Positions 16,519-41,222 of a stretch of DNA of 64,000 nucleotides are shown one piece after another (within the stretch, counting starts at the first letter, position 1; every line of letters begins with the position of its first letter). The notes under the pieces are model-generated. The model was not told the origin of the DNA, made no database searches, and was given only the letters and a program-made list of their open reading frames with translations. Position numbers and translations under genes: made by a program. The DNA lies in contig NZ_JQSG02000001.1 in assembly GCF_000754095.2 (NCBI RefSeq), positions 62,001 to 126,000 on the forward strand, written 5' to 3'. The DNA comes from Acidihalobacter prosperus. Its GTDB lineage: Bacteria > Pseudomonadota > Gammaproteobacteria > DSM-5130 > Acidihalobacteraceae.

Positions 16519-17115
16519 ATGACTTTCCTGCAATTTGTGTTTTATTTATTTTCCGCGCTGACCATCCTTTCGGCACTGGGTATGATCGTCGCGCGCAACC
16601 CGGTGCACGCCGTGCTTTTCCTGGTGTTCGCGTTTTTCAACAGCGCGGCGTTGTGGATTACCCTGCAGGCCGAATTTCTTGGCATCGTCCTGGTGCTGGT
16701 CTACGTGGGGGCGGTCATGGTGCTCTTCCTGTTCGTGGTGATGATGCTGGATATCAACATCGCGCGGATGCGTGAAGGCTTCACGCGATTTTTACCGCTA
16801 GGCGTCGTCGTAGCGCTGGTCATGGTTGTGGAAATGGGATTGATCGTCGGTGCGCGCAACTTCCAGATTCATGCCCCCCATGCGAGCGGCACCCAGGTTC
16901 CCAATACGGTCGAACTGGGACGCGTGCTGTATACGCAGTACGCGTACCCCTTCGAACTGGCGGCCGTCATACTGCTGGTCGCGATCGTGGCCGCCATATC
17001 GCTGACCTTCCGCCGTAGACCCGACACCAAATACCAGCGTCCTGAGCAGCAGATCCGGATTCGAAGGGAAGATCGAGTCAGGTTGGTGAACATGCCCTCT
17101 GAAAAGAAGCAGTGA
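16519..17115 (+). CDS. nuoJ: NADH-quinone oxidoreductase subunit J
   Basis: This 198-residue membrane subunit has about five helices. The conserved NPVHAVLFLVFAFFNSAALW and GAVMVLFLFVVMML segments are present. The C-terminal tail is charged and cytoplasmic. It sits between nuoI and nuoK in the standard order. Confidence 0.94.
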   Translation: MTFLQFVFYLFSALTILSALGMIVARNPVHAVLFLVFAFFNSAALWITLQAEFLGIVLVLVYVGAVMVLFLFVVMMLDINIARMREGFTRFLPLGVVVALVMVVEMGLIVGARNFQIHAPHASGTQVPNTVELGRVLYTQYAYPFELAAVILLVAIVAAISLTFRRRPDTKYQRPEQQIRIRREDRVRLVNMPSEKKQ

Positions 17116-17175
17116 CGCGGGATGTCGCTGATGTACCGCAGGCCCTGACAACCCGACGCGCCTTACGGAGAAACC

Positions 17176-17481
17176 ATGCTTTCACTATCGAATTACCTTG
17201 TGGTCGGCGCCATTTTGTTTTCGCTGGCAGTGGCAGGCATATTCATTAATCGCAAGAACGTGATCGTGCTGCTGATGTGCGTGGAGCTGATGCTGCTCGC
17301 CGTCAACATGAATTTCATCGCGTTCTCGCATTTCCAGCAGAATCTGGCAGGGCAGGTATTCGTGTTCTTCATCCTGACCGTGGCCGCGGCCGAGGCCGCC
17401 ATCGGTCTGGCGATTCTGGTGGTGCTGTTCCGAAACCGTCGCACGATCAACGTCAGCGACCTGGATGACATGAAGGGGTAG
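17176..17481 (+). CDS. nuoK: NADH-quinone oxidoreductase subunit K
   Basis: This 101-residue subunit has three helices and belongs to the MrpC-like family. The conserved membrane glutamates lie in [17 protein letters not shown] and [13 protein letters not shown]. An ACGGAGAAACC ribosome binding site precedes the ATG. The nuoL ATG follows after three bases. Confidence 0.95.
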
Positions 17482-17484
17482 TTA

Positions 17485-19470
17485 ATGGAAGCCGTCTATC
17501 TCGCCATCCCGCTGGCGCCGCTGATCGGTGCGATCATTGCCGGCCTGTTCGGCCGTGTGATCGGCCGTGCAGGTGCACATTGGGTCACGACCGGCAGCGT
17601 GGCGATCGCGTTCCTGCTGTCGGCATGGGTGTTCAAACGCCTCGTATTCGATGGCGCGGCGCCATTCGACGGGCCCGTCTATACCTGGATGAGCGCGGGC
17701 GGCTACAACTTCACGATCGGCTTTCTGATCGACCGCCTCAGCGTGCTCATGATGGTCGTGGTGACTTTCGTGTCGCTGATGGTGCACGTTTACACCATCG
17801 GTTACATGGGACACGACGAGGAGCTCTGGCCGGAAGACAGCCGTCCACGCGAAACTACCTATCAGCGTTTCTTCAGCTACATCGCGCTGTTCACCTTCTC
17901 CATGCTCATGCTGGTGATGGCGAACAATTTCCTCCAGCTCTTCTTCGGCTGGGAGGCGGTGGGTCTGGTCTCGTATCTTCTGATTGGTTTTTATACGTAC
18001 CGCGAGTCCGCGATCTACGCCAATCTCAAAGCCTTCCTGGTCAACCGGGTCGGCGATTTCGGTTTTGTGCTGGGTATCGCCGCCGTCTACATGTATACGG
18101 GCAGCCTCGATTATCACGTCGTGTTCGCGCAGGCGCCGCAGCTGGTGGGCCAGACCATCAGCGTTCTACCGGGCGAGCACTGGGCGGTCCCTACCGTTAT
18201 TGCGATCCTGCTGTTCATCGGCGCGATGGGCAAATCGGCCCAGGTGCCGCTGCACGTGTGGTTGCCGGACTCAATGGAAGGCCCGACGCCGATTTCCGCG
18301 CTGATCCATGCCGCAACCATGGTCACGGCCGGCATCTTCATGGTCAGCCGCATGTCACCGATCTACGAGCTCAGCCCGACGGCGCTGAGCCTGGTGCTCG
18401 TCATAGGCGCGATAACTGCATTCTTCATGGGGCTTATCGGCATCGTGCAGCAGGATATCAAGCGTGTGATCGCCTATTCGACGCTGTCCCAACTCGGTTA
18501 CATGACCGCGGCTCTGGGGGCATCTGCCTATGCCGCCGGGATGTTCCATTTGCTGACCCATGCCTTCTTCAAGGCACTGCTGTTTCTCGCCGCCGGTTCG
18601 GTCATCATGGCCATGCACCACGAGCAGGACATTCGCAAGATGGGCGGCCTGCGTCGCTATATGCCGGTGACCTACTGGACCTCGCTGGTCGGTTCGCTTG
18701 CGCTAATCGGTTTTCCGGGATTCTCGGGCTTCTTCTCGAAGGATTCGATCATCGAAGCCGTACGTGATGCACATGTTCCCGGTGCCGGACTTGCCTACTG
18801 GTTGCTGCTGCTCGGCGTGTTCGTGACCGCGCTTTACACGTTCCGCCTGTTTTTCCTGGTGTTCCACGGCAAGGAACGGATGGATGCGCATACGCGCGAG
18901 CACCTGCACGAATCGCCGCTCGTGGTTACCGTGCCGCTGATTCTGTTGGCGATCCCCGCATTCGGTGCCGGTTACCTCATCCACCCGCTGCTGTTCGGTC
19001 ACTACTTTGGCAACACCATCGAGGTATTGCCGGCCCATGACGTGCTGGCCGTGCTGGGCAGTCATTATCACGGCGCGCTGGCGATGATGCTGCACGGTCT
19101 GACCGCTGCGCCTTTCTGGCTCTCGATCGCCGGCGTCGCGGTCGCCGCCTACGTGTATCTGTATCAGCCGTCGCTGGCGTCTGAATTCAAGACACGTCTG
19201 CATGGCATATGGAAAATGCTCGACGAACGCTATGGTTTTGATGCCTTCAACGACCGCGTGTTTGCAGGGGGCGGGCGTGCGTTGGGACGTTTGTTCTGGC
19301 GCATCGGCGATGCCTTTGTCATCGACAACTTGGTGGTGAACGGCGTCGCACGTGTGATCGGCTGGACCTCGGCGCGCGTGCGCCATGTGCAAACCGGCTA
19401 TCTGTACCACTACAGCTTCGCCATGATCATTGGCGTGCTGGTGTTGCTGAGCTGGTTCGTATTCCGCTAG
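17485..19470 (+). CDS. nuoL: NADH-quinone oxidoreductase subunit L
   Basis: This 661-residue antiporter-like proton-pumping subunit is homologous to MrpA. It has a long series of helices and the family region GWEAVGLVSYLLIGF. The conserved Lys-containing MGKSAQVPLHVWLPDSMEGP and HAATMVTAGIFM segments are visible. A C-terminal lateral helix and anchor are consistent with the full length. Confidence 0.96.
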   Translation: MEAVYLAIPLAPLIGAIIAGLFGRVIGRAGAHWVTTGSVAIAFLLSAWVFKRLVFDGAAPFDGPVYTWMSAGGYNFTIGFLIDRLSVLMMVVVTFVSLMVHVYTIGYMGHDEELWPEDSRPRETTYQRFFSYIALFTFSMLMLVMANNFLQLFFGWEAVGLVSYLLIGFYTYRESAIYANLKAFLVNRVGDFGFVLGIAAVYMYTGSLDYHVVFAQAPQLVGQTISVLPGEHWAVPTVIAILLFIGAMGKSAQVPLHVWLPDSMEGPTPISALIHAATMVTAGIFMVSRMSPIYELSPTALSLVLVIGAITAFFMGLIGIVQQDIKRVIAYSTLSQLGYMTAALGASAYAAGMFHLLTHAFFKALLFLAAGSVIMAMHHEQDIRKMGGLRRYMPVTYWTSLVGSLALIGFPGFSGFFSKDSIIEAVRDAHVPGAGLAYWLLLLGVFVTALYTFRLFFLVFHGKERMDAHTREHLHESPLVVTVPLILLAIPAFGAGYLIHPLLFGHYFGNTIEVLPAHDVLAVLGSHYHGALAMMLHGLTAAPFWLSIAGVAVAAYVYLYQPSLASEFKTRLHGIWKMLDERYGFDAFNDRVFAGGGRALGRLFWRIGDAFVIDNLVVNGVARVIGWTSARVRHVQTGYLYHYSFAMIIGVLVLLSWFVFR

Positions 19471-19517: not shown

Positions 19518-21032
19518 ATGCTTACGCATTGGCCACTGCTCAGCCTGGTGATCTGGCTGCCGGTACTCGGCGGCATCGTGCTCATGGCCACATCTGGTGG
19601 TTCGGAGCGGCTGACGAAACAACTGGCGCTGGTGATCTCGGTGCTCGCGTTCATTGTCAGTATTCCGTTGCTGACGAATTTCAACACGCATACCGCCGCG
19701 ATGCAGTTCGTCGAATTCCATCCGTGGATTCGCATGCTGAATATCAATTATCACCTCGGTGTGGACGGACTTTCGGCACCGTTGATCGTGCTCACCACTT
19801 TCATGACCGTGATCGTCGTGATTGCGGGCTGGGAAGTCATCGACCGGCACGTGGCGCAGTACATGGCGGCCTTCCTGGTGCTGGAAGGCTTGATGAACGG
19901 CGTGTTCGCGGCGCTGGATTCGATCCTTTTCTACATTTTTTTCGAAGGCATGCTGATCCCGATGTTCCTGGTGATCGGCATCTGGGGCGGACCGCGGCGC
20001 GTCTACGCGACGATCAAATTCTTCCTCTACACCTTCCTCGGCTCCGTGCCGATGCTGATCGCCCTGATCTACCTTTACACCCGTTCCGGCAGCTTCGGCA
20101 TCGCCGAACTGCAGCAGCTGCATATCGGGCTGACCGCGCAGATCCTGATTTTCCTGGCCTTCATGGGCGCGTTCGCGGTCAAGATCCCCATGTGGCCTGT
20201 GCATACGTGGCTGCCCGATGCGCACGTGGAAGCGCCCACGGGGGGGTCGATCATTCTTGCCGCCATCATGCTCAAGGTCGGTGCCTACGGTTTCCTGCGC
20301 TTTTCTTTGCCCATCGTGCCGGACGCCAGCCAGATGCTGAGCGGGGTGCTGATTTTCATGTCTCTGGTCGCGATCGTGTATATCGGATTCGTCGCGCTCG
20401 CCCAGCAGGACATGAAAAAACTCATCGCATATTCATCGATCGCGCACATGGGCTTCGTGACCCTGGGCTTTTTCTCGATCTACGCCGTCATCGCCAACAG
20501 CGGCGTGAGTCAAGCGGCCCTGTTGGGGCTGGAAGGCGGCTTGGTGCAAATGGTCTCGCACGGCTTCATTTCCGGTGCGCTCTTCCTGAGCGTGGGCGTG
20601 CTGTACGACCGCATGCACAGCCGCGAAATCTCGGCCTACGGCGGCGTGGTCAACACCATGCCCGTGTTCGCAGGCTTCTTCGTCCTTTTCGCGATGGCGA
20701 ACACCGGCCTGCCGGGCACCTCCGGTTTTGTCGGCGAATTCATGGTCATTCTTGCCAGCTTCCATGCCAACTTCTGGTATGCGCTGCTGGCGGCATTCAC
20801 GTTGATCATCGGTGCGGCATACACCCTGTGGCTGGTCAAGCGCGTGATATTCGGCCCTGTGGCCAATCAGGAGGTTGCGGCGCTCAAGGACGTGAACCGG
20901 CGCGAGCGGCTGATGCTGACGCTGCTGGCCTTGGCCGTGCTGCTGCTCGGTATCTGGCCCGCGCCGCTGCTCGATATCATGCATGTGTCCATGCAGCATC
21001 TGCTGCAGCAGGCGCTGGCCTCCAAGCTTTGA
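19518..21032 (+). CDS. nuoM: NADH-quinone oxidoreductase subunit M
   Basis: This 504-residue antiporter-like subunit of complex I has the conserved FFEGMLIPMFLVIGIWGG segment with its membrane glutamate, VKIPMWPVHTWLPDAHVEAP, and YSSIAHMGFVTLG. The length is normal. A 114-base gap with no gene separates it from nuoN. Confidence 0.96.
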   Translation: MLTHWPLLSLVIWLPVLGGIVLMATSGGSERLTKQLALVISVLAFIVSIPLLTNFNTHTAAMQFVEFHPWIRMLNINYHLGVDGLSAPLIVLTTFMTVIVVIAGWEVIDRHVAQYMAAFLVLEGLMNGVFAALDSILFYIFFEGMLIPMFLVIGIWGGPRRVYATIKFFLYTFLGSVPMLIALIYLYTRSGSFGIAELQQLHIGLTAQILIFLAFMGAFAVKIPMWPVHTWLPDAHVEAPTGGSIILAAIMLKVGAYGFLRFSLPIVPDASQMLSGVLIFMSLVAIVYIGFVALAQQDMKKLIAYSSIAHMGFVTLGFFSIYAVIANSGVSQAALLGLEGGLVQMVSHGFISGALFLSVGVLYDRMHSREISAYGGVVNTMPVFAGFFVLFAMANTGLPGTSGFVGEFMVILASFHANFWYALLAAFTLIIGAAYTLWLVKRVIFGPVANQEVAALKDVNRRERLMLTLLALAVLLLGIWPAPLLDIMHVSMQHLLQQALASKL

Positions 21033-21146
21033 CGTGAGGACCGATGATGCCTGCCATGCCGACGACGACACGCACGCGCGCGCAGCGCGCTCATGCACGC
21101 CAGACGTTTTTCGCCGCGAACAACTTGAGATGGGGCGCCCCGTAAC

Positions 21147-22592
21147 ATGAATCATTTTCCCCTAACCGACATCACCCTGGTGGTGCCCGAGTTGTTCATG
21201 CTCGGCATGATCTGCGCGATCCTGGTGATCGACGTATTCCTGCGCGACGAGCAACGTGGCGTGACCTACTGGCTTACGCAGGCCAGTCTGGTGGGTGCGT
21301 TGATCCTGACGTTGACGATGGACGAGGGCACGCGTCGCGTGGGCCTGAGCGGCACCTTCATCGCCGATCCGCTTTCGGTCCTGCTCAAGTCCGCGGTATA
21401 CGTCCTGACCATCGCGGTCTTCGCCTACTCGCGGCGCTATCAGGAGAGTCGCGACCTGTTCCGCGGCGAGTATTTCGTGCTCGGCCTGGCGGGCGTGCTG
21501 GGCATGATGGTGCTGATCTCGGCCTACAGCCTGTTGACGGTGTATCTCGGTCTGGAGCTAATGTCGCTCGCGCTCTATGCCATGGTCGCACTGCAGCGGG
21601 ATTCGGGGCGCGCATCCGAGGCCGCCATGAAGTATTTTGTACTCGGCGCACTGGCCTCCGGCATGCTCCTGTACGGCATGTCCATTCTGTACGGCCTGAC
21701 CGGTACGCTGGGCATGCCGGAAATCGCCGCATCGCTGATTCAGCAAAATCACCCACCCATGGCCGTGACGTTTGCCGTGGTCTTCGTGGTGGTCGGGCTG
21801 GCCTTCAAGCTGGGAGCCGTGCCCTTCCATATGTGGGTTCCGGATGTTTACGAAGGCGCCCCCAGTTCGGTCACGCTGTATGTGGGGTCGGTTACCAAGA
21901 TTGCCGCCTTCGCCATGCTTCTCAGGCTGCTGGCCGAAGCCCTGCCCAGCACGCATGCCAGCTGGGGCGGCATGCTCGAACTCATGGTCGTGTTGTCCCT
22001 GGCGGTCGGCAACGTGATTGCGATCGCACAAACGAACATCAAGCGCATGCTGGCCTATTCAACGATCTCCCATGTCGGATTCGTGATGCTCGGCGTGTTG
22101 ACCGGGACGGCGACCGGTTACGCAGCTGCGATGTTCTACGTGCTGATCTACGCGCTGATGTCGGCCGGTGCCTTCGGCATGGTCGTGCTGTTGAGTCGCA
22201 AGGGATACGAGGCCGAGAATCTGAGCGATTTCAGCGGGCTCAACGAGCGTAGCCCATGGCTGGCCTTCGTCATGTTGTTGTTCATGTTTTCCATGGCCGG
22301 CGTGCCGCCGACGGTGGGTTTCTATGCGAAACTTGTGGTACTGCAGTCTGTCATACAGGTCGACCAGCCGTGGCTGGCCTTGTATGCCGTGATCATGTCG
22401 GTCATTGGCGCCTTCTATTATCTGCGAGTCGTCAAGTTCATCTATTTCGACAAGCCCGTTACGAACGAACCGGTGGTCACCGGTCCCGTCGCAGGAGCAA
22501 TCATGAGCGCCAATGGGTTGTCCGTTCTGGTCCTGGGTCTTTTCCCCTGGGTGTTGATGTCGATCTGCGCCGCCGCGGCGGCCAGCCTGTGA
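21147..22592 (+). CDS. nuoN: NADH-quinone oxidoreductase subunit N
   Basis: This 481-residue third antiporter-like subunit has GLELMSLALYAMVALQ, FKLGAVPFHMWVPDVYEGAP and YSTISHVGFVMLG as family landmarks. It completes the 14-subunit set A-N. The stop codon is two bases before the ATG of the DUF2818 gene, which suggests the operon continues. Confidence 0.96.
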   Translation: MNHFPLTDITLVVPELFMLGMICAILVIDVFLRDEQRGVTYWLTQASLVGALILTLTMDEGTRRVGLSGTFIADPLSVLLKSAVYVLTIAVFAYSRRYQESRDLFRGEYFVLGLAGVLGMMVLISAYSLLTVYLGLELMSLALYAMVALQRDSGRASEAAMKYFVLGALASGMLLYGMSILYGLTGTLGMPEIAASLIQQNHPPMAVTFAVVFVVVGLAFKLGAVPFHMWVPDVYEGAPSSVTLYVGSVTKIAAFAMLLRLLAEALPSTHASWGGMLELMVVLSLAVGNVIAIAQTNIKRMLAYSTISHVGFVMLGVLTGTATGYAAAMFYVLIYALMSAGAFGMVVLLSRKGYEAENLSDFSGLNERSPWLAFVMLLFMFSMAGVPPTVGFYAKLVVLQSVIQVDQPWLALYAVIMSVIGAFYYLRVVKFIYFDKPVTNEPVVTGPVAGAIMSANGLSVLVLGLFPWVLMSICAAAAASL

Positions 22593-22594
22593 GT

Positions 22595-22918
22595 ATGAGC
22601 GACGGAACCTTTACCTGGACCTACGTCATCGTGGCCCTGATTGCGGCCAATCTGCCCTGGCTGAGCGAGCGCCGTTTTTTCGTGTGGCCCTCCGCCACGC
22701 CCAAGTCGGCGGCCTTCAGGCTTTTCGAATGGCTTGTGATGTATTTCGTGACCGGCGCGATCGGTCTGGGTCTGGAGCACCAGATGACGGGCGAGATTTA
22801 CCACAAGGGCTGGGTTTTCTACACGGTCACCGTTTCGCTGTTCATCGTGTTTGCCATGCCAGGGTTCATCTATCGCTACGATTTGCGTCGCCATCTGCGC
22901 AATAACCGCCGCGCCTGA
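22595..22918 (+). CDS. DUF2818 family membrane protein, nuo-linked
   Basis: This 107-residue protein has three predicted helices (about 6-24, 42-62, 73-94) and a basic C-terminus. The sequence IAANLPWLSERRFFVWP fits DUF2818, a family found directly after nuoN in many beta- and gammaproteobacteria. No biochemical role is known to me; position suggests an assembly or accessory function for complex I. A GTG at 22589 overlapping the nuoN stop is an alternative start. Confidence 0.8.
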   Translation: MSDGTFTWTYVIVALIAANLPWLSERRFFVWPSATPKSAAFRLFEWLVMYFVTGAIGLGLEHQMTGEIYHKGWVFYTVTVSLFIVFAMPGFIYRYDLRRHLRNNRRA

Positions 22919-22950
22919 TCGCGGATTTGCCAGGCTTGGAAAGATGGTCC

Positions 22951-22979
22951 TTGCCAAGTCGGCACCCTTTGAGTACTAT
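22951..22979 (+). promoter_or_regulatory. Promoter of the initiator tRNA / rimP-nusA-infB operon
   Basis: TTGCCA (22951-22956) and TACTAT (22974-22979) are separated by exactly 17 bases. The expected start site is about 7-10 bases before the tRNA. In gammaproteobacteria the metY-nusA-infB operon is transcribed from such a promoter. Confidence 0.65.
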
Positions 22980-22992
22980 ACGCAGCCTCTGA

Positions 22993-23069
22993 TGCGGGGT
23001 GGAGCAGTCTGGCAGCTCGTCGGGCTCATAACCCGAAGGTCGCAGGTTCAAATCCTGCCCCCGCTACCA
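22993..23069 (+). tRNA. metY: Initiator tRNA-fMet(CAT)
   Basis: This 77-base tRNA has anticodon CAT in the loop CTCATAA. The anticodon stem has the three consecutive G:C pairs (GGG/CCC) that mark initiators. Acceptor bases 2-7 (GCGGGG) pair with CCCCGC; position 1 is T and position 72 is T, so the first pair is a mismatch, as initiators require, but U-U rather than the usual C-A. CCA is encoded. It precedes rimP, matching the metY position. Confidence 0.95.
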
Positions 23070-23080
23070 AGGAATAGAAT

Positions 23081-23107
23081 AAAAAGGCCCCGTCAGGGGC
23101 CTTTTTA
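23081..23107 (+). terminator. Intrinsic terminator after the initiator tRNA
   Basis: An 11-bp stem, AAAAAGGCCCC paired with GGGGCCTTTTT around a GTCA loop, ends in a T-run. It would separate most tRNA transcripts from the downstream rimP-nusA-infB message, with readthrough feeding the operon. The A-tract makes it potentially bidirectional. Confidence 0.85.
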
Positions 23108-23162
23108 TTAGCCGCAGCGAATGCCCGCGACGGTTTGAAACGGGCGCGGGGTCGAGTGGATC

Positions 23163-23669
23163 ATGAGTGAACCGATGCAGGAAAGACTCGAAGGCTTGTT
23201 GTCGCCTCTGGTGGCGGGGATGGGTTTCGAGCTCTGGGGACTGGAATACGCCCAGCGTGGCGAGCAGGCTCTGCTGCGGGTTTTCATTGATCGCGATGGC
23301 GGCATCACGCTGGACGACTGCGCGCTGGTCAGCGAACAGGTCGGCGCGCTGCTTGATGTCGAGGATCCGATCACCCTGGCCTACCGTCTGGAAGTGTCCT
23401 CTCCGGGCCTTGACCGCGTGCTGTTCAAGCCCGAGCAGTATCGACGCTATATCGGCGCGCGCCTCAAACTGCGTCTGCGCTGGGCGGTGGAAGGGCGTCG
23501 CAATGTCCAGGGGCGCCTGGTCGCGTGCGACGATGAGGCGGTCAGTATCGAATTGGAGACGGGCGAAGCGGCTACGGTTCCACTGGAATCGGTGCACCGT
23601 GCCCGTCTGATCTATGAAATGGGGTCGGAGCAGCCGGAACAGCGGTCTGTGTCCGATACCGACGAATGA
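23163..23669 (+). CDS. rimP: Ribosome maturation factor RimP
   Basis: This 168-residue protein is needed for 30S subunit maturation. The N-terminal alpha/beta domain contains GFELWGLEY and RVFIDRDGGITLDDCALVSEQ, and the DYxLEVSSPGLDR-type motif appears as YRLEVSSPGLDR. A C-terminal SH3-like domain follows. It opens the protein-coding part of the nusA-infB operon. Confidence 0.95.
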   Translation: MSEPMQERLEGLLSPLVAGMGFELWGLEYAQRGEQALLRVFIDRDGGITLDDCALVSEQVGALLDVEDPITLAYRLEVSSPGLDRVLFKPEQYRRYIGARLKLRLRWAVEGRRNVQGRLVACDDEAVSIELETGEAATVPLESVHRARLIYEMGSEQPEQRSVSDTDE

Positions 23670-29236: not shown

Positions 29237-29327
29237 GGAGAGGTGTCCGAGTGGTTGAAGGAGCACGCCTGGAAAGTGTGTATACGGTAACCCCGTATCG
29301 AGGGTTCGAATCCCTCCCTCTCCGCCA
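29237..29327 (+). tRNA. tRNA-Ser(GGA)
   Basis: This 91-base class II tRNA has the acceptor stem GGAGAGG/CCTCTCC, anticodon GGA (29271-29273) in loop CTGGAAA, a long variable arm, T-loop TTCGAAT and an encoded CCA. Its 3' end serves as the attachment site of the downstream island: the last 17-19 bases recur at 40869 and 41046. Confidence 0.96.
29311..29327 (+). repeat. attL core (tRNA-Ser 3' end)
   Basis: These 17 bases are the acceptor/T-arm 3' strand of tRNA-Ser plus CCA, and are identical to the copies at 40869-40885 and 41048-41064. Integration regenerates the intact tRNA at this end. Confidence 0.8.
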
Positions 29328-29392
29328 TATAATACATAAGGCATTGAATTCCAGATAATTTATTAGGAATCAATACTTAGCGCTATTCGACT

Positions 29393-29420: not shown

Positions 29421-31022
29421 ATGCCAGACATGTCTCTACAGACCCATCTACTCAGGCGGGGCGGGATTTATTACTTCCGCGCCAAGATTCCTGTCGACCT
29501 GCAATTGTACTTGGGTAAACGCGAGGAGAAGTTCTCGCTCAAGACCAGAGATCCCCAGGAAGCGCGTAGTCTGGCCCGTCGTGCCTCGGCCGACTTCGAC
29601 CGACGCTGCGCGATGTTACGTGATGAGATCGCTGCCCGCCAGCGGTCCGATACTGGCCGGGTCGTGGATGAAGCGCTGATTCAAGAGATCTGCATGCACT
29701 GGCGGCATCAGGCGCTGGCCGGCGACGAACAGATCCGTATTCTCGGACAGGCGGCGGAAGAGCGCCGGACAGGTCACGCCGAACGTGAAGTCACACGCGC
29801 CGCGCTCAAGGAAACGCTCAGCCAGAGCGCGCTGGAGGCGGTTGAGCCGGCGCTGAAAGGTTTTTTGTATCTCAATGGGCTGCATATCGATCAAAAAGAC
29901 ACGGAAGGCTACCGCAGGCTGCTCTACCGCTTCCTGCAGACGGTGACCGAGGTCCACGACCAGCAGCTTGCGCGCGATGCCGGAGAAGTCGTCTGGACGC
30001 CTGAGGCGCCGCTGACGCCCCGTTCGCCGACCACCCCGGGCCTGAGCCTCGAGATCGCCTTCGAGGACTGGAAACGCTTCGACCCCAGCCGTCCGGCCCG
30101 TACCGTGGCCGACGTGCGCCGAGTGGTCGATGCATTCCAACAACTCACCGCCCATAAGCCCCTAGAGGCGATCGAGCGCCAGGAAGTGATCGCCTACCGT
30201 GACCAGTGTATCGCCCAGGGCCTCAGCGCCAAGACCGTCAGCAAGAAAATCGCCTTGCTATGCGCCCTGTTCAACGTCGCCATCGATAGCGGCAAGCTAC
30301 GCTATAACCCCGCCCAGCGAGTCTCGATCCCCAGGGGCGATCGCCGTCAGCGCAAGCCCTTCGACCTCGACGATCTCAAGCGCATCTTCGGGCCCACGCT
30401 CTACACCCGGGGCTTGGGACGCAAGACGGGTGCCGCCGGCATCTGGTTGCCGCTGCTGGCGCTCTACCAAGGCTGCCGGGTCGAGGAATTGGCGCAACTG
30501 CGTGTAGCCGACGTGCAGCACGCCGAAGGTATCGACTACCTCAATATCGACGACGACACCGATGCGACCCATACGCAAGGCGCCGAGGCGGTGGGGAAGC
30601 GACTCAAAAATACCGCCTCGCGCCGACGCCTGCCGCTGCATCCGGCCGTCATCGCCGCCGGTTTTCTGGATTATGTCGAGCAGGTGAGGGCGCAGCGCCA
30701 TCACCGACTGTTTCCGAGCCTGATCCCGGACAAGGACGGCAAATACTCGTCCACCTTCTCCAAAGCCTTCATGAGATACCTGCGCAGTGATCTTGAGATC
30801 ACCGACAGGTCTAAGGTATTTCACAGCTTCCGACATCGCTTTCGGAGTGCCTGCCGCGACGCCGGGCTGGACGAAGAGATCGCTGACGCCCTGATGGGGC
30901 ATAGCGATGGGCAGAAAACCGGACGCCATTATGGCGAGCGTTTCAGCCTGATCCGACTGCACGAAGCGATCAGCCGGATTCAATATCCGGGTTTGGAGAT
31001 CCCGCGTCACCCCAGCCACTGA
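29421..31022 (+). CDS. int: Site-specific tyrosine recombinase (integrase)
   Basis: This 533-residue protein starts with a short DUF6538-like arm-binding segment (LLRRGGIYYFRAKIP), continues through a helical region and an SAM-like core-binding domain (about 205-300), and ends with the catalytic domain. The catalytic set is visible: Arg353 (GCRVEEL), a Lys near 396, His468 and Arg471 (HSFRHRFR), His494 (GHSDGQ) and Tyr504 (GRHYGE). It lies beside its tRNA-Ser attachment site and presumably catalyses integration and excision of the island. Confidence 0.93.
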   Translation: MPDMSLQTHLLRRGGIYYFRAKIPVDLQLYLGKREEKFSLKTRDPQEARSLARRASADFDRRCAMLRDEIAARQRSDTGRVVDEALIQEICMHWRHQALAGDEQIRILGQAAEERRTGHAEREVTRAALKETLSQSALEAVEPALKGFLYLNGLHIDQKDTEGYRRLLYRFLQTVTEVHDQQLARDAGEVVWTPEAPLTPRSPTTPGLSLEIAFEDWKRFDPSRPARTVADVRRVVDAFQQLTAHKPLEAIERQEVIAYRDQCIAQGLSAKTVSKKIALLCALFNVAIDSGKLRYNPAQRVSIPRGDRRQRKPFDLDDLKRIFGPTLYTRGLGRKTGAAGIWLPLLALYQGCRVEELAQLRVADVQHAEGIDYLNIDDDTDATHTQGAEAVGKRLKNTASRRRLPLHPAVIAAGFLDYVEQVRAQRHHRLFPSLIPDKDGKYSSTFSKAFMRYLRSDLEITDRSKVFHSFRHRFRSACRDAGLDEEIADALMGHSDGQKTGRHYGERFSLIRLHEAISRIQYPGLEIPRHPSH

Positions 31023-31173: not shown

Positions 31174-32232
31174 GGCCGCGCCCCCCAATGAGGGGGCGGG
31201 GCCGAATGCGCCGGATTCCTTTATCCGACGTTTTGTCCACAAAAGTCACACTCGCGAATCCTAATGATCCACGCGCCTCGTGCCGTCGCCATGGCTGCCA
31301 CGCCAAGGTTTGATGACGGTCGATGGAAAGCGGTCCAGGTACCACCCTGTCCCGTTAGCCACCTCGTGCCCTGCCAGGGGCTTTAGTCTCTTATCACTGC
31401 TTCGGGCTTTCGCCTGCAGAACCCTTCGTATCGGTTCAGCTCTGCAGGTCCGGCCGGCGCACATGCGCCGCACCGCTACTTGCCCGATCTCCCACACCTG
31501 TACAGCGCCTTGCGACGCCAAACCCAGCGGTTGCCTACCGCTCATTGGCCCAGGTGCTTCCCACGTTAGTTAGACGCTACTACGCAATATATCGCCGCCG
31601 CTGTCATGATCGAGTCATCGCATACGCTCACCCGGTTGCCCGGTGTCAGTCCCGCGAGATTCCATAGCCGGTGACTTACCAGACTCATCAATCCCAGCTA
31701 CCGATTAACCCGCTACGCTGCGGGCCAACGGCTGTCTATATGCTCTGCACAGCATCCCTCATCGAGGACGCCGTTAGACGCTTGAGCTATGCATCGGCCC
31801 CGGGCTTCCCCAGGTGCCCCGTACCCTGAACGGTCCATGCCGTCGGCCTCGCGGCCATCGTACGATCTACAGATTACCCTGTAGCTAAGCCTACGTCTGC
31901 AGCACCCGTCACGCGCTTGCGCTCGTCCCGGGGATATGGATTGAGTACCAGATTTTCGCGTCAAACCGGAACGCCGCGGCATTTCCTCCGCGGGCCCGTG
32001 TCCGTGTCGCCCAATCTACCTGATTGCTCCGGATAGTCGGATTGAGTCGAGTCGGGAGTTTCACCCGCCGCGCTCATCGCAGCCGCGCCAGCTCCATTAC
32101 GAGCACGCGGCTACAGCAGTTCCGGTAGGGTGGCGCCCTACCTTCCAAGAGATTACGAGGGGGTTGGCAGCCCCCTCACTGAACTGGCAGGGAGCGGGCC
32201 AACAGGCCCACGTTGATGACGCTTTCGCGTCT
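31174..32232 (-). ncRNA. Candidate large structured noncoding RNA (unclassified)
   Basis: About 1.1 kb without a credible protein gene is packed with strong hairpins: 31174-31203, 31397-31419, 31505-31518, 31527-31541, 31629-31645, 31845-31856, 31867-31884, 31974-31993, 32124-32142, 32157-32178, 32197-32210 and 32219-32232. Read on the minus strand, several are closed by GNRA tetraloops: GAAA (32224-32227 and 31408-31411), GCAA (31510-31513 and 31636-31639) and GCGA (31849-31852). On the plus strand these loops are TTTC, TTGC and TCGC, so the RNA is most likely transcribed leftward from near 32290. I cannot assign it to a known class. Ends and promoter are not defined. Confidence 0.55.
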
Positions 32233-32471
32233 GTGTCTCCTTCATATTTTCTCACTTATCCTAGGTGGATCAATACATTAGGGCGATGGTCATCTCGCCC
32301 AGTTTAGGAATCTCTCTTTATGGAGCGGCCACTTTCGTGTCCGGATCATTGCGCGGCTGCGGCTTCGCCGCACACGCGAAAAATCAGCGGCCTCGACCAA
32401 GCGCCTCCCCCTAGCGCGCAGACGCGGCCGCATGGATCCAGAGAGACCGTCGGCTATTGCCATAGGGGTGC

Positions 32472-32544
32472 CCTCGCGCGCGCGAGGCATCGCCTGCGCA
32501 GCCTATGGAATCAGGCGCGAATCCGTGCCCTCGCGCGCGCGAGG
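32472..32544. repeat. Two copies of a 16-bp perfect palindrome
   Basis: CCTCGCGCGCGCGAGG occurs at 32472-32487 and 32529-32544, 57 bases apart, within a 20-base direct repeat beginning GTGC. They lie upstream of the ATG at 32584 and between the divergent RNA candidate and that gene. They could be operators for a dimeric regulator; alternatively they form cruciforms. Confidence 0.6.
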
Positions 32545-32583
32545 GAGAAGCGCTCTAATTTTGTCGTCCCCCTACTACTAGGT

Positions 32584-33288
32584 ATGGACGCACACTCATA
32601 CCTCATCAGGGATACGCTGCACGCTTCCCGTGCCATCATCAACGCAGTCTCACGCGGACATGATCGGCATACCTCAGGCCTCGTGCCACTCGAACGCGCG
32701 GAAGCACTGGTCACCAAGTTCGCCGAGCGTTACGGGGTGCTCGAGTCGGCATCCGAGGCGCGGCAGCGACGCCGACACAAGCTTGCCCGTGCCCGATTGC
32801 ATATGGGTTTTGTGGGGCGCGTCGAGGATGGCCATCTCTGGTGGCTGTTGTTGGTCAGTCGGGAGGGTGAAGGTCCGGTGACGACGCTGGAGAAGCTGTA
32901 CGCCGCGCAGGACAAACACCATCGCATTCACATCATGGGGCTGGAGTTGGTCCGCTACCCACGACCTGGTAGCGTAGAGCGCTGGACTTGGCGACTGCCG
33001 ACCGACGCGTATCGCTTGCTACTCAAGCACGCCGTGGCCTTGGCGCGGCATCAAGATCCGCGTCAGGCGCAGGCGCTGATCAATCACGAGATGCGCCGGC
33101 CGGGCTATAGAGGGATCCGCACGCAGCGTAAAGAATTGTTCCGGGCGATGGCGCGGGCTCGCGCGCCACTGGTCAAGCGCGGCGCCGCGCCGCTCGTGTT
33201 CCCCGAATCACAGTTCTGGCTGCGCATGTTGTCGGCCGATATGGAGAGCATACCGCTGGGTGTGCTGGTGAGGCGCTTGCGCAGATGA
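32584..33288 (+). CDS. Hypothetical island protein
   Basis: This basic protein of 234 residues is one I do not recognise. It has an Arg/His-rich helical N-terminal half (RARLHMGFVGRVEDGHLWW, then a WLLLVSREGEGP strand) and ends in VRRLRR. The central part looks like a small alpha/beta domain. No signal peptide or membrane helix is evident. The open frame extends upstream to 32320, but the palindromic repeats and low-complexity translation there favour the ATG at 32584; the ribosome binding site is weak. It is divergent from the structured RNA candidate and precedes the hxs cluster. Confidence 0.6.
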   Translation: MDAHSYLIRDTLHASRAIINAVSRGHDRHTSGLVPLERAEALVTKFAERYGVLESASEARQRRRHKLARARLHMGFVGRVEDGHLWWLLLVSREGEGPVTTLEKLYAAQDKHHRIHIMGLELVRYPRPGSVERWTWRLPTDAYRLLLKHAVALARHQDPRQAQALINHEMRRPGYRGIRTQRKELFRAMARARAPLVKRGAAPLVFPESQFWLRMLSADMESIPLGVLVRRLRR

Positions 33289-33482: not shown

Positions 33483-33782
33483 ATGAATAAGAAATTCATG
33501 ACTAAATTTGCTGTCCTCTCTGCGACATTTGCAGCCGCATCTCAGGCCCAAGCGATGCTTACTCCGAACAATCCTTCTGATACATGGCCGACAACTGTCA
33601 CGGCTACGTTAATCAACATTCCTTCCCTAAAGGCACATCGGCCATCCGCTGCGCTAAGCGACAGGGATTTTGTCCTGAAACGGATGGGGCAGGGTGGCCT
33701 AATGGTTGCTGACCACTGGTCGCATGCTTCTCACAGCTCGCACGTATCGCACTACTCAAGCAGTTCAAACAACGGCTACTAG
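33483..33782 (+). CDS. hxsA: His-Xaa-Ser repeat precursor protein HxsA
   Basis: This 99-residue protein ends in five consecutive His-x-Ser triplets (HWSHASHSSHVSHYS, residues 78-92) followed by SSSSNNGY. The N-terminus looks like a Sec signal peptide: Lys-rich start, hydrophobic core and an AQA site at residue 24. Together with the next three genes this matches the His-Xaa-Ser system, in which paired radical SAM enzymes are predicted to modify the repeat peptide. The actual modification is unknown. The product is presumably exported after or before modification. Confidence 0.88.
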   Translation: MNKKFMTKFAVLSATFAAASQAQAMLTPNNPSDTWPTTVTATLINIPSLKAHRPSAALSDRDFVLKRMGQGGLMVADHWSHASHSSHVSHYSSSSNNGY

Positions 33783-33844
33783 AAAGATACCAATCCAGTA
33801 AGACCGATGCTCTCTGGTTATTTTCGTCTTAGGGGGCTGATCAA

Positions 33845-34129
33845 ATGCAGAACCTTGCGCTAGATTGCACATGCTATTCCATTGACGCCGTTCAGAAAGC
33901 CGCGTACCGATTCATAGATCGGCTAACTATTCAGATATCCACTTCTGACAGTGAAATTATATGCTCTATCGAGCCTATAAAAAAAAATAGTGACCTAGAT
34001 GTGCTAATCGCTGATTTCAAGCGGGAACTGCTAGACCAGGAATTGCGTGAAAAGATAAAGGTAGAGACAGCACCTGTCAGGGATCTCATTTTGTCGCTCG
34101 CTTTCTCCAAGAGTGGCTTGCAGGAATGA
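33845..34129 (+). CDS. hxsD: His-Xaa-Ser system protein HxsD
   Basis: This 94-residue protein contains the family landmarks AYRFIDRLTIQIS and the C-terminal FKRELLDQELREKIKVETAPVRDLILSLAFS region (read in two parts). HxsD occurs only with HxsB and HxsC and is a likely peptide-binding or partner protein, by analogy with other radical SAM peptide systems. GGGGG lies before the ATG, and its stop overlaps the hxsB start (ATGA). Confidence 0.88.
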   Translation: MQNLALDCTCYSIDAVQKAAYRFIDRLTIQISTSDSEIICSIEPIKKNSDLDVLIADFKRELLDQELREKIKVETAPVRDLILSLAFSKSGLQE

Positions 34130-35586
34130 GCAAGTTCGTCGGTATCGATGAGTTCCGCGCAGAAAACGGGAACTACAGCCTGCTCCCATTCAGATTCGAG
34201 TCAATTGATTTTGAAAATATAGTGGTAACAAATTCCGTGGGCGAATTCGTCATCATGGGCCGTGACAAGCTCGACCCTTTGGTGGAAAAGTCCTTACCTA
34301 GTAATGATCCTGACTATGTGGCGTTACGTCGCATTCAGGTGTTGAAAGAGCCGTCTGATTACTGGGCTTTGTCGTTACTAGCCCTGAAAACTCGTACACG
34401 CCTGTTGCCGCTACGGAATTTCACAAACTTGCACATCTTTGTCGTCAGCCTTCGCTGCGATCATAGTTGTCAATATTGCCAGGTGTCGCGTCAGTCGGAT
34501 AACAAGCTGGCATATGACATGTCTGAAGGAACAGCCAACAAGGCTTTGGACATGGTTTTTCGGTCGCCCAACGAAGCTATCAAGATTGAGTTCCAGGGTG
34601 GAGAGCCCCTTCTGAACTTCGAACTGATCCGGTATGTTGTGGAAAAAGCGGAAGAGCGTAACCAAATAGAGCAACGTGATCTCCAGTTTGTTATTGCAAC
34701 CTCACTTTCTTTAGCCACTAACGATATTCTCGAATATTGCCGTGATCACCATATATATCTGTCCTCGTCACTAGATGGCCCCGCAGACCTCCACAACAAG
34801 AATCGACCTCGTCCTGGTAGAGATAGCCACGAGCGCTTTTCTGACGGTTTGCGACGTGCGCGCGACATTGTCGGTTATGACGCAGTATCAGCGTTGATGA
34901 CGACCTCGCCTGCCAGCATGACCCGTGTAACAGACATCATCGATGAATACCTTAGATTCGGCTTCGATAGTATTTTTCTCCGCCACCTTTCGCCCTATGG
35001 CTTTGCGGTCAAGACAAAAAGCTACCAAGCATATAATGCTGAACGCTGGCTGCAGTTCTACAAAGAAGGTGTGGAGTACATCCTTGACCTAAACCGGAAA
35101 GGTATTCGGTTCGTCGAGCATTATTCGACCATCATTTTGACCAAGATGTTTGCCGTGAATGACCCCGGGTTTGTTGATCTTAAGAACCCCGCAGGAGTGG
35201 GCATTGCTGCGGTCGTGTTCAACTATGACGGCGACGTCTATGCCTCTGACGAAAGCCGAATGCTTCATGAGATGGGTGATTCATCGTTCAGGATGGGCAA
35301 TCTCCATGAAAACACATACAAGGAAATCTTTACATCTGATGCCCTGCTAAGTGCTCTGGAAGATTCTTTCACCCTTTCCGCTCCGATGTGCAGCGACTGT
35401 GCTTTTGAGTCTTGGTGCGGCGCTGATCCAGTGTTTCACCATGCCACCTTTGGTGACATGCTTGGCCGAAAGCCAGAATCCGAGTTCTGCAAGCGCACTA
35501 TGGGAATAATTCGATATCTTCTCGACAAGATCCGTAACGACACAGAGGCGCTTGAAATTTTCAAACGCTGGGTTAATAAATGTTAA
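34126..35586 (+). CDS. hxsB: His-Xaa-Ser system radical SAM maturase HxsB
   Basis: This 486-residue radical SAM enzyme has the cluster motif CDHSCQYC (Cys111, 115, 118; CX3CX2C), the GGEP-type segment EFQGGEPLLNFELI and a Cys-rich C-terminal region (MCSDCAFESWCG plus a later EFC) like SPASM auxiliary-cluster domains. It would cleave S-adenosylmethionine to make a radical that modifies HxsA. It overlaps hxsD and hxsC by a few bases, so the three are co-translated. Confidence 0.9.
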   Translation: MSKFVGIDEFRAENGNYSLLPFRFESIDFENIVVTNSVGEFVIMGRDKLDPLVEKSLPSNDPDYVALRRIQVLKEPSDYWALSLLALKTRTRLLPLRNFTNLHIFVVSLRCDHSCQYCQVSRQSDNKLAYDMSEGTANKALDMVFRSPNEAIKIEFQGGEPLLNFELIRYVVEKAEERNQIEQRDLQFVIATSLSLATNDILEYCRDHHIYLSSSLDGPADLHNKNRPRPGRDSHERFSDGLRRARDIVGYDAVSALMTTSPASMTRVTDIIDEYLRFGFDSIFLRHLSPYGFAVKTKSYQAYNAERWLQFYKEGVEYILDLNRKGIRFVEHYSTIILTKMFAVNDPGFVDLKNPAGVGIAAVVFNYDGDVYASDESRMLHEMGDSSFRMGNLHENTYKEIFTSDALLSALEDSFTLSAPMCSDCAFESWCGADPVFHHATFGDMLGRKPESEFCKRTMGIIRYLLDKIRNDTEALEIFKRWVNKC

Positions 35587-36737
35587 CGCTCTCAGGGAAA
35601 GTATTAAGCGTATCGGAAGCGCAGCACGACAATAGTCAGCGGCGTAGAGTTTATAGCCTAACCACAAATGATAATTTGCCGTTACCTCTAAGAGCTCAAA
35701 AGGCGCTTATTTACCACCATGATGGCTCGCCACCTCCCGGATATGAGCATTACATATTCATTGGCAAGACACCTTCTTCATGGGCAGAAGCAAGTAACTA
35801 CACTGTGGTCCCGGAAAGTTTTGATTATTTGGGTGAAGGTGACGTCGTTGCGCTATCCGAGACTGGGATCCGCTCACTTTACCGAGCTAACTCCCGTCAT
35901 AACAGCCTTCTCCTGACCGAACGATGTAATCACTATTGTTTGATGTGTTCCCAGCCACCTAAGCGCAGTGACGATAGCTGGCTCTTGGATGAGGCGTTCG
36001 ATGCGATTCGACTCATGCCGAGATCCACACAAACCCTAGGCATCACAGGTGGAGAGCCAACACTTTATCGAGATGGGTTCCTGCAACTGATCAGGCACAT
36101 ACAGTCGTATCTTCCCAATGCTGCGTTGCACATCCTGTCAAATGGCCGCGCATTCTCTGACGTGGAATTCACAGGGCGATATGCAACTATTAAGCACCAA
36201 AACTTGATGCTCGGAATACCCTTGTATTCATCTGATCCCACACGCCATGACTATGTGGTGCAATCGAGAGGGGCTTTTGATGAGACGATCAGAGGCATAC
36301 TTAACCTGAAACAACACCAACAAAAGGTTGAGTTACGTGTTGTCCTACACAAGCTAACATCCCAGGGGTTGCCTGATCTTGCCGAGTTTATTGCCCGTAA
36401 TTTGCTTTTTGTGGATCAGGTCGCCCTAATGGGCTTGGAAATGACGGGCTTCACCCTGGCCAATCTCAATGAGCTCTGGATAGACCCGGTAGACTACCAG
36501 AGTGAACTTCGTGCGGCGGTACGAACATTGGATGCATACGGCATCCCTGTTTCGATTTACAATCACCAGCTTTGTTTAATACCTCAGGATTTAGAGAGAT
36601 TCAGTGTCAAGTCCATCTCTGATTGGAAGAATGAATTTGTCTCAGAGTGTGAGTCGTGTACCAGAATGCATGAATGTGGTGGTTTTTTTTCATCTGGAAT
36701 TGTAAATGGGTATAGCCCTTCCATTAAGAAATTCTAG
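35580..36737 (+). CDS. hxsC: His-Xaa-Ser system radical SAM maturase HxsC
   Basis: This 385-residue second radical SAM enzyme has the motif CNHYCLMC (Cys116, 120, 123), a GITGGEPTLYRDG segment and a terminal Cys cluster (CESCTRMHECGG). The region before the motif is a long N-terminal extension (about 110 residues). Pairing of HxsB and HxsC suggests two successive or cooperative modifications of HxsA. It ends the operon; no terminator is obvious before the IS256 remnant. Confidence 0.9.
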   Translation: MLTLSGKVLSVSEAQHDNSQRRRVYSLTTNDNLPLPLRAQKALIYHHDGSPPPGYEHYIFIGKTPSSWAEASNYTVVPESFDYLGEGDVVALSETGIRSLYRANSRHNSLLLTERCNHYCLMCSQPPKRSDDSWLLDEAFDAIRLMPRSTQTLGITGGEPTLYRDGFLQLIRHIQSYLPNAALHILSNGRAFSDVEFTGRYATIKHQNLMLGIPLYSSDPTRHDYVVQSRGAFDETIRGILNLKQHQQKVELRVVLHKLTSQGLPDLAEFIARNLLFVDQVALMGLEMTGFTLANLNELWIDPVDYQSELRAAVRTLDAYGIPVSIYNHQLCLIPQDLERFSVKSISDWKNEFVSECESCTRMHECGGFFSSGIVNGYSPSIKKF

Positions 36738-40628: not shown

Positions 40629-40868
40629 GCAGAAGCTCAGCCATTCTCAGGCAGCGGCCATTATATTTTGTTACAACGGATATCCTGATGGAAGCAGCCA
40701 GTGACCGCAAGGGGGATGTTTCGAGGCTATTCGTAAAGCGCGATTGACAGATCAATGTTCTTTGTGGATATTAGATAGTTAAACTGATACGCCAGAGTGG
40801 TACACTAGTCGAGTTAAGCGTTCTTGTAACTTATTGATTGTAGAGGTATTGTATCTGGATATCCGGAT

Positions 40869-40911
40869 TCCCTCCCTCTCCGCCACTTAATCGCAGCCGC
40901 GATATTCCGTT
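40869..40911 (+). repeat. attR-like copy 1
   Basis: These 43 bases begin with the tRNA-Ser 3' end (17 bases) and continue CTTAATCGCAGCCGCGATAT. The whole block recurs exactly at 41047-41089, 178 bases downstream; similarity continues with mismatches for about 15 more bases. Confidence 0.8.
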
Positions 40912-41045
40912 CCACAGCGATTGCCATCTGATCCTTCCGAATGGAGGGTGAGAAGCCTCATGGGTTCGACCGATTCGTCCGGAACGGATCGGCACGCCGC
41001 GCGAGCGGCGGTCCCGCAGGGACGAGGCGCAGGACGCGCCGAGCA

Positions 41046-41089
41046 ATCCCTCCCTCTCCGCCACTTAATCGCAGCCGCGATATTCCGTT
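41046..41089 (+). repeat. attR-like copy 2
   Basis: This is the second copy of the tRNA-Ser 3' end, with 19 bases (from AATCCC) identical to the tRNA gene, followed by the same flank as copy 1. It is probably the original chromosomal junction; the segment between the two copies could be a leftover of an earlier or tandem integration. Confidence 0.75.
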
Positions 41090-41222
41090 GCCCAGCGACT
41101 GTCATTTTATGCTGTGCAGGGCAAAGGTGCAGACCACCGGTTTGCTCAGTACCTTGACGCGAGCGCCGTTGCCGATATTCGTGAGATTGCTAATTCCGGG
41201 CGCGGAACGCTAGCATTGCCGG

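Follow-up and report, generated by a model that had tools for sequence, protein, structure and literature searches.

A Circularly Permuted Group II Ribozyme with a Cognate Upstream Site in a tRNA-Ser Island of Acidihalobacter prosperus, a Candidate DNA Mobilization Module

Genomic island and its recent transfer

The window analyzed here is a stretch of 64,000 nucleotides from A. prosperus, and all positions without a replicon name refer to it. It contains a genomic island of ~11.7 kb that extends from a tRNA-Ser gene to the distal att repeats and carries an integrase, a ribozyme, the gene acpG and cargo. Apart from the ribozyme, its landmarks are the following.

29237-29327, plus strand: tRNA-Ser (GGA), the integration site, with an att repeat at 29309-29333
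29421-31022, plus strand: tyrosine integrase of the island, with DUF6538 and Phage_integrase domains (domain search)
32584-33288, plus strand: acpG, 234 aa, divergent partner of the RNA (neighbor family and profile)
40867-41069, plus strand: distal att repeats, 40867-40891 and 41045-41069 (repeat search)

The distal end consists of two adjacent att-containing copies of 67 nt (40869-40935 and 41047-41113), 90% identical, which are perhaps the trace of a second integration. Within the cargo (33483-36737), a small Ser/His-rich precursor-like protein is followed by two radical SAM proteins, whose radical SAM domains were confirmed, an arrangement that we take to be reminiscent of His-Xaa-Ser (Hxs) systems. 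Compared with G002, a genome from a different species of the genus, the window has 98.5-98.8% identity in the integrase and in the ribozyme-acpG segment but only 81% in infB; the G002 copy is at a different tRNA-Ser (CGA) and has different cargo. From this disparity in sequence identity, the integrase-ribozyme-AcpG backbone moved recently between species.

Structure and class of the RNA

The following parts of the RNA were located, all of them on the minus strand.

32231-32218 and 31414-31405, minus strand: hairpins with GAAA loops (direct reading)
31924-31913 and 31524-31505, minus strand: hairpins with GCAA loops (direct reading)
31856-31845, minus strand: hairpin with a GCGA loop (direct reading)
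32157-32177, minus strand: 5' hairpin GAGGGGGCUGCCAACCCCCUC, a P1/P2-type stem (direct reading, with the choice between P1 and P2 presumptive)
32124-32142, minus strand: 5' hairpin GGUAGGGCGCCACCCUACC, a P2-type stem (direct reading)
32082-32112, minus strand: domain 5, with the AGC triad at 32112-32110 and a UN bulge (alignment and direct reading)
32044-32075, minus strand: domain 6, with the bulged branch-point A at 32047 (alignment and direct reading)
32013-32040, minus strand: predicted excised circle of 28 nt, from the 3' splice site CAAU^ to the 5' splice site ^GGGCG (splice-site rule)
32008-32012, minus strand: GGGCG motif of the 5' splice site, where domain 1 begins (alignment and reading)
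31762-31969, minus strand: most of domain 1, with strong covariation (alignment)
31392-31761, minus strand: remainder of D1 and D2-D4, toward the 3' end of the ribozyme, a conserved core (conservation, with presumptive domain borders)

The initial annotation had described a large structured noncoding RNA of the minus strand in a tRNA-Ser island, with hairpins closed by GNRA loops; these are found where it placed them, and the homologues covary. It had also taken the strand bias as a mark of RNA, and folding agrees: minus-strand 31390-32232 reaches -383 kcal/mol (z = -4.0, equaled by 0/20 shuffles), against z = -1.8 for the plus-strand fold of the interval. Several G-U pairs are invariant on the minus strand (e.g., UG 41/41, GU 43/43) and would become C-A mismatches if read on the opposite strand, so these fixed pairs indicate that the functional RNA is that of the minus strand. 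The interval originally proposed, 31174-32232, was right in part. It includes the conserved element, from ~32178 to ~31392, but 31174-31391 is without clear conservation, and two further parts, the site upstream at 32314-32307 and acpG at 32584-33288, fall outside it.

A sensitive DNA search of plasmids gave partial matches in Azotobacter, Thiothrix, Halomonas, Paraburkholderia, Polaromonas and E. coli plasmids, running colinear with the window RNA and mostly over stretches without an annotated gene. With a degenerate pattern of the best-conserved motif, 38 genome contigs were retrieved, 37 of which fit the element profile; none of the pattern matches in viral contigs fit it, and the phage records searched for the element gave no match. 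Carriers in E. coli (5426 genomes) were 15 plasmids of ~30 kb and 7 of ~3 kb, with 0 chromosomal copies, and other carriers include Pseudoalteromonas pMtBL and Acinetobacter plasmids. The E. coli ~30-kb T4SS plasmids and 3-kb RepL plasmids constitute a family from many hosts and countries that is typed non-mobilizable.

Covariation among homologues, which had been suggested as a check on the RNA, was found and is strong (40+ homologues). The D1 and D5-D6 parts were aligned separately. In the former (43 sequences), 93.4% of the cells are paired, compared with 28-42% when the partners are slid by 1-3 columns, and two-sided changes occur in 427 cells versus 50-95; for the latter (41 sequences), the values are 98.3% versus 32-47% and 166 cells versus 7-23. 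Each of the two pairing scores lies above all 500 shuffles.

Circularly permuted (CP) group II ribozymes have been described as RNAs of ~900 nt, present on chromosomes and plasmids and frequently next to acpG, with a role not known (PMC8637638, Roth et al. 2021). The minus-strand RNA at ~32178-31392 is almost certainly a member of this known class. It is homologous over its full length, and colinear, to the RNA of Polaromonas pPNAP05, retrieved independently as a homologue, which self-processes in vitro (PMC8637638). Its match to A. radioresistens pARA1 (E = 5e-48) is also colinear, and the Polaromonas and Acinetobacter radioresistens ribozymes are both among those assayed in the same study (PMC8637638). 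A hairpin close to the 5' end is laid out like domain 5 of group II introns, and D5 and D6, with covarying helices, precede D1-D4. Across 41 aligned sequences, A and G of the triad are conserved in 41/41 and C in 37/41, with the bulge U and the branch A in 41/41; in the window, the D5 triad, the D6 branch A and both splice-site motifs read as intact. The splice-site rule NU^ / ^GGGCG predicts a circle of 28 nt in the window and of 32 nt in pPNAP05, the latter equal to the published circle length, and published spacers between the splice sites span 15-86 nt (PMC8637638). For the ribozyme of the 3-kb E. coli plasmid, the predicted circle has 20 nt. Taken together, the pPNAP05 homology, the splice-site rule, the triad, bulge and branch A, and AcpG place the RNA in the CP group II class. 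In the window copy, by reading, the loop CGCCA (32142-32124) is complementary to UGGCG near 31520 (31524-31505), a candidate P2-D2 pseudoknot.

The window RNA thus shares with the CP group II ("T-large") RNAs of Roth et al. the 5' D5-D6, the AGC triad, the UN bulge, the branch A, the NU and GGGCG splice sites, a size of ~900 nt, a nearby acpG and an often plasmid-borne location. A difference is that the window copy resides in an integrase island at tRNA-Ser. With canonical mobile group II introns, it has in common the D5/D6 active-site layout, an exon-binding sequence and a reaction with DNA that is possible in principle. However, its domain order is permuted, it has no intron-encoded reverse transcriptase and it interrupts no gene; the permuted order, the lack of a reverse transcriptase ORF near the RNA and the lack of an Rfam intron match rule out a canonical group II intron.

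The statement that the RNA matches none of GOLLD, ROOL and HEARO holds and extends to every other Rfam model: at gathering and permissive thresholds, the covariance models, those of GOLLD, ROOL, HEARO, OLE and introns among them, produced chance-level matches only. The accompanying idea of an unmatched or new class had to be abandoned, given the homology, splice sites and D5/D6 of a CP group II ribozyme. Size, mobile setting and the missing Rfam match would all suit an unrecognized giant RNA like GOLLD, ROOL or HEARO, but full-length homology to an experimentally proven CP group II ribozyme, the class signatures and covariation rule it out. The probability left to it, or to a decayed protein-coding region, is negligible, the latter being ruled out by base-pair covariation and the same full-length homology to an active ribozyme. 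Two of the neighbor-protein clusters (2 and 3) turned out to be spurious translations of the RNA itself.

The partner protein AcpG

The gene next to the RNA had been noted as divergent and unknown. Divergent it is, but it is not unknown, being the recurrent partner acpG. AcpG is encoded near the RNA in 45/54 loci, mostly in divergent orientation, and conversely, a protein search of genomes gave 10 distinct AcpG loci, each with the RNA beside it. The family profile, built from the RNA neighbors, matches TTHC007, the founding AcpG, with E = 2.3e-15. Comparisons with Pfam, NCBIfam, PHROGs and PDB sequences returned nothing useful. The AlphaFold model is confident (pLDDT 88) and has no Foldseek match at E <= 0.001; its faint similarity to reverse transcriptases (TM ~0.3) was not considered significant. 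No later work on AcpG or CP group II function was found in the literature covered (mostly outside subscription journals and bioRxiv preprints). Just upstream of acpG, there are two exact 20-nt copies of GTGCCCTCGCGCGCGCGAGG, with the palindrome CCTCGCGCGCGCGAGG, at 32468-32487 and 32525-32544, a possible operator or processing site. In the much-used Antarctic plasmid pMtBL, the hypothetical orf1 (110-817) is AcpG, and the unannotated stretch at ~3115-3881 is a CP group II ribozyme.

Co-evolution of the guide and its cognate site

Two short sequences on the minus strand are complementary to each other.

31656-31663, minus strand: guide or exon-binding sequence GGAAUCUC, in a terminal loop (alignment and reading)
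32307-32314, minus strand: candidate target site GAGATT^CC, the exact guide complement GAGATTCC (complementarity and homologues)

The 8-nt GGAAUCUC is the most conserved motif of the RNA, and its loop is here equated, by position and complementarity, with what would be the exon-binding site of PMC8637638. The site was first noticed in early alignments and then tested on 47 loci, where this first pass, with a different search window, gave an exact site in 31/47 (chance ~0.01 per locus). With the search window fixed after the first pass at 500-1400 nt upstream of the guide, the exact guide complement was found between acpG and the ribozyme in 50/58 loci, against 0.74 expected, the 58 loci being related by descent and hence non-independent draws. 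No site, exact or not, was detectable in 5/58, one of which is at a contig end and one of which has an IS insertion. GAGATT is found at the splice site of the ribozyme itself in only ~7/47 loci.

Loci derived from the pattern carry GGAAUCUC by construction, so a stronger test is provided by the loci with variant guides that were found by other routes (n = 10). All ten have a compensated site, exact in 8 and with one G.T wobble in 2, and the consensus GAGATTCC is kept in none of them. Examples of the variant guides with their sites are GGAACCUC with GAGGTTCC, GGAUGUUC with GAACATCC, GUAUCUUC with GAAGATAC, GGAGUCCC with GGGACTCC and GGAACUUC with GAAGTTCC. Swapping guides among the ten loci gave a mean of 1.7 matches and a maximum of 6, versus 8 for the real ones (three loci share one guide). 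This test rejects a chance origin of GAGATTCC, and the sequences indicate a guide-site co-evolution that appears to be new relative to the class description; the main text of PMC8637638 is without the upstream cognate site, guide co-evolution and relaxase-less conjugative context that the present analysis adds. Thiothrix pTunz1 has two CP group II ribozymes (16679-17867 and 32161-33216), with a cognate site upstream only of the acpG-adjacent one.

A block rich in A/T flanks the site at its 5' end, and at 10/26 loci (expectation 0.7) an inverted repeat stops 6-16 nt short of the site on its upstream side. In the window this repeat is weak; on the RNA-only plasmid of Novacetimonas, a palindrome of 24 nt takes its place. 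The chief rival to a role in DNA transfer takes the site as part of a transcript: ribozyme and AcpG would be a maintenance or regulatory module that governs either its own expression or how stably the element is kept, and the site would lie within the leader of the ribozyme transcript and be processed as RNA, e.g., by 5'-end maturation or silencing through guide pairing. The position in the divergent acpG-ribozyme intergenic region fits such a leader, the A/T-rich block could be part of a promoter and pMtBL is transcribed over nearly its whole length (PMC10033558). A sigma-70 promoter overlapping the site was rejected, since no -35 element is conserved upstream across loci and no such promoter was found in the window, which counts against regulation. 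Weighed with the distribution on plasmids described below, we regard this regulatory role as unlikely.

Relaxase-poor plasmids

By database typing, 37/38 plasmid records with the RNA are non-mobilizable, and so are 27/27 of those with AcpG (27/28 with a second query), compared with 444/5000 (8.9%) of plasmids with a homologous VirB4, among which the four best matches all carry the CP group II RNA. Three relaxase families were searched for directly (PF03432, PF08751 and PF03389), with 0 hits in the 10 plasmid records searched; for the E. coli 30-kb plasmid, the relaxase check consisted of annotation and Pfam. T4SS gene sets without an annotated relaxase are found in E. coli pEc631_3, whose coupling-protein candidate was recognized only by similarity to others, Paraburkholderia pBN5, Gluconacetobacter pGDIPal5I and Pandoraea pPO70-4. 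On several full-T4SS plasmids, the RNA and acpG are near the coupling-protein or VirB11 genes, and in the related Xanthomonas plasmII, the coupling protein is followed by mobF. The ribozyme module and such a protein relaxase with its oriT (MobF of plasmII) would have in common the proposed role, a coupling protein nearby and, in part of the loci, a short conserved site preceded by an inverted repeat. Unlike the relaxase system, the module has an RNA and a protein without recognizable fold in place of an HUH relaxase. In Pandoraea pPO70-4, the ribozyme (20620-23246) is split by an IS256-family element, a natural knockout on a T4SS plasmid.

In E. coli FHI_NMBU_11 and in Novacetimonas C110, an RNA-only plasmid and an AcpG plasmid reside in one strain, the split one would expect of a ribozyme and site that work in cis with a protein supplied in trans. 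The Novacetimonas AcpG plasmid has neither the ribozyme nor a matching site. Counting against mobilization, the 3-kb plasmid is present in six E. coli strains that lack both the 30-kb AcpG plasmid and any acpG of this type, and a T4SS in cis is missing from several small plasmids and from pTT8. The same six strains, by retaining ribozyme and site without AcpG, speak for regulation, which in turn predicts neither the scarcity of relaxases nor the split over co-resident plasmids; moreover, the replicons are unrelated, replication is independent of the module and the module is also found in chromosomal islands. A replication or copy-number RNA is disfavored, as the carriers have unrelated replicons and tolerate the published deletions: OriR (1918-2759) is sufficient for the replication of pMtBL (PMC10033558), and pTT8 is stated to tolerate deletion of the ribozyme (PMC8637638).

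A possible role in mobilization

Our preferred reading, plausible but not quite probable, is that the ribozyme and AcpG are a DNA mobilization module in which the upstream site is recognized, and perhaps cut, in place of a relaxase and oriT; a role in the transfer of the element is proposed just as tentatively. The ribozyme would be transcribed leftward, folded and probably bound by AcpG. Its guide GGAAUCUC would pair with the upstream site GAGATTCC on the ribozyme-sense strand, the site being used as DNA, and the ribozyme would react at GAGATT^CC by reverse splicing or hydrolysis. The opened DNA strand might then serve as the starting point for transfer of the element, through its own T4SS or that of a helper. 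For the island, a helper would be needed, since no VirB4 (PF03135) was found in the host genome, nor was one found in nine other AcpG genomes. The ribozyme RNP would thus fill the role of relaxase and oriT; ribozyme and AcpG make up, with the integrase, the backbone of the mobile island. As has been remarked, back-splicing run in reverse would cut one strand of DNA, a reaction open to exploitation by an associated mobile element (PMC8637638). In its strongest form, which seems rather unlikely, CP group II plus AcpG would be an RNA-based relaxase: by pairing with an oriT-like site and cutting it, the RNP would start the passage of single-stranded DNA through type IV secretion. RNA catalysis, and not a protein relaxase, would then move a class of conjugative plasmids, satellite plasmids and islands.

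A precedent is SGI1, in which the element-encoded sgm-sRNA is needed for mobilization (PMC9299015). The two systems would have in common an element RNA in mobilization, nonclassical proteins and a helper T4SS in trans. In contrast to the window RNA, sgm-sRNA is small, with no known relationship to it, and SGI1 uses the tyrosine-recombinase-like MpsA/MpsB with an oriT, RNA-oriT pairing having been judged unnecessary there (PMC9299015).

Cutting at the site could also serve exclusion or defense, with the guided RNP cleaving the same site in incoming related elements and not for its own transfer. Targeting of invading nucleic acids is mentioned as a possibility in PMC8637638, and a guide and site that covary by lineage would define specificity groups. 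However, an element that carries the site itself would be a target of its own RNP, a complete plasmid usually bears a single site and one guide is common to most lineages, giving little discrimination, all of which makes defense improbable. Finally, the RNA might be a self-splicing passenger, selfish or relict, that does nothing for the element, with the upstream site left over as a remnant target, in keeping with the seeming futility of back-splicing (discussed in PMC8637638). The catalytic signatures, the acpG association and compensated sites kept across divergent lineages render this very improbable.

CP group II ribozymes have been a recognized class since 2021, and the guide-target co-evolution and relaxase-less context make their function directly testable. 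If the mobilization reading is true, this would, to our knowledge, be the first case of DNA transfer started by a natural ribozyme. The non-mobilizable typing of some T4SS plasmids and tiny plasmids would then be accounted for, and annotation tools would gain a new mobilization marker.
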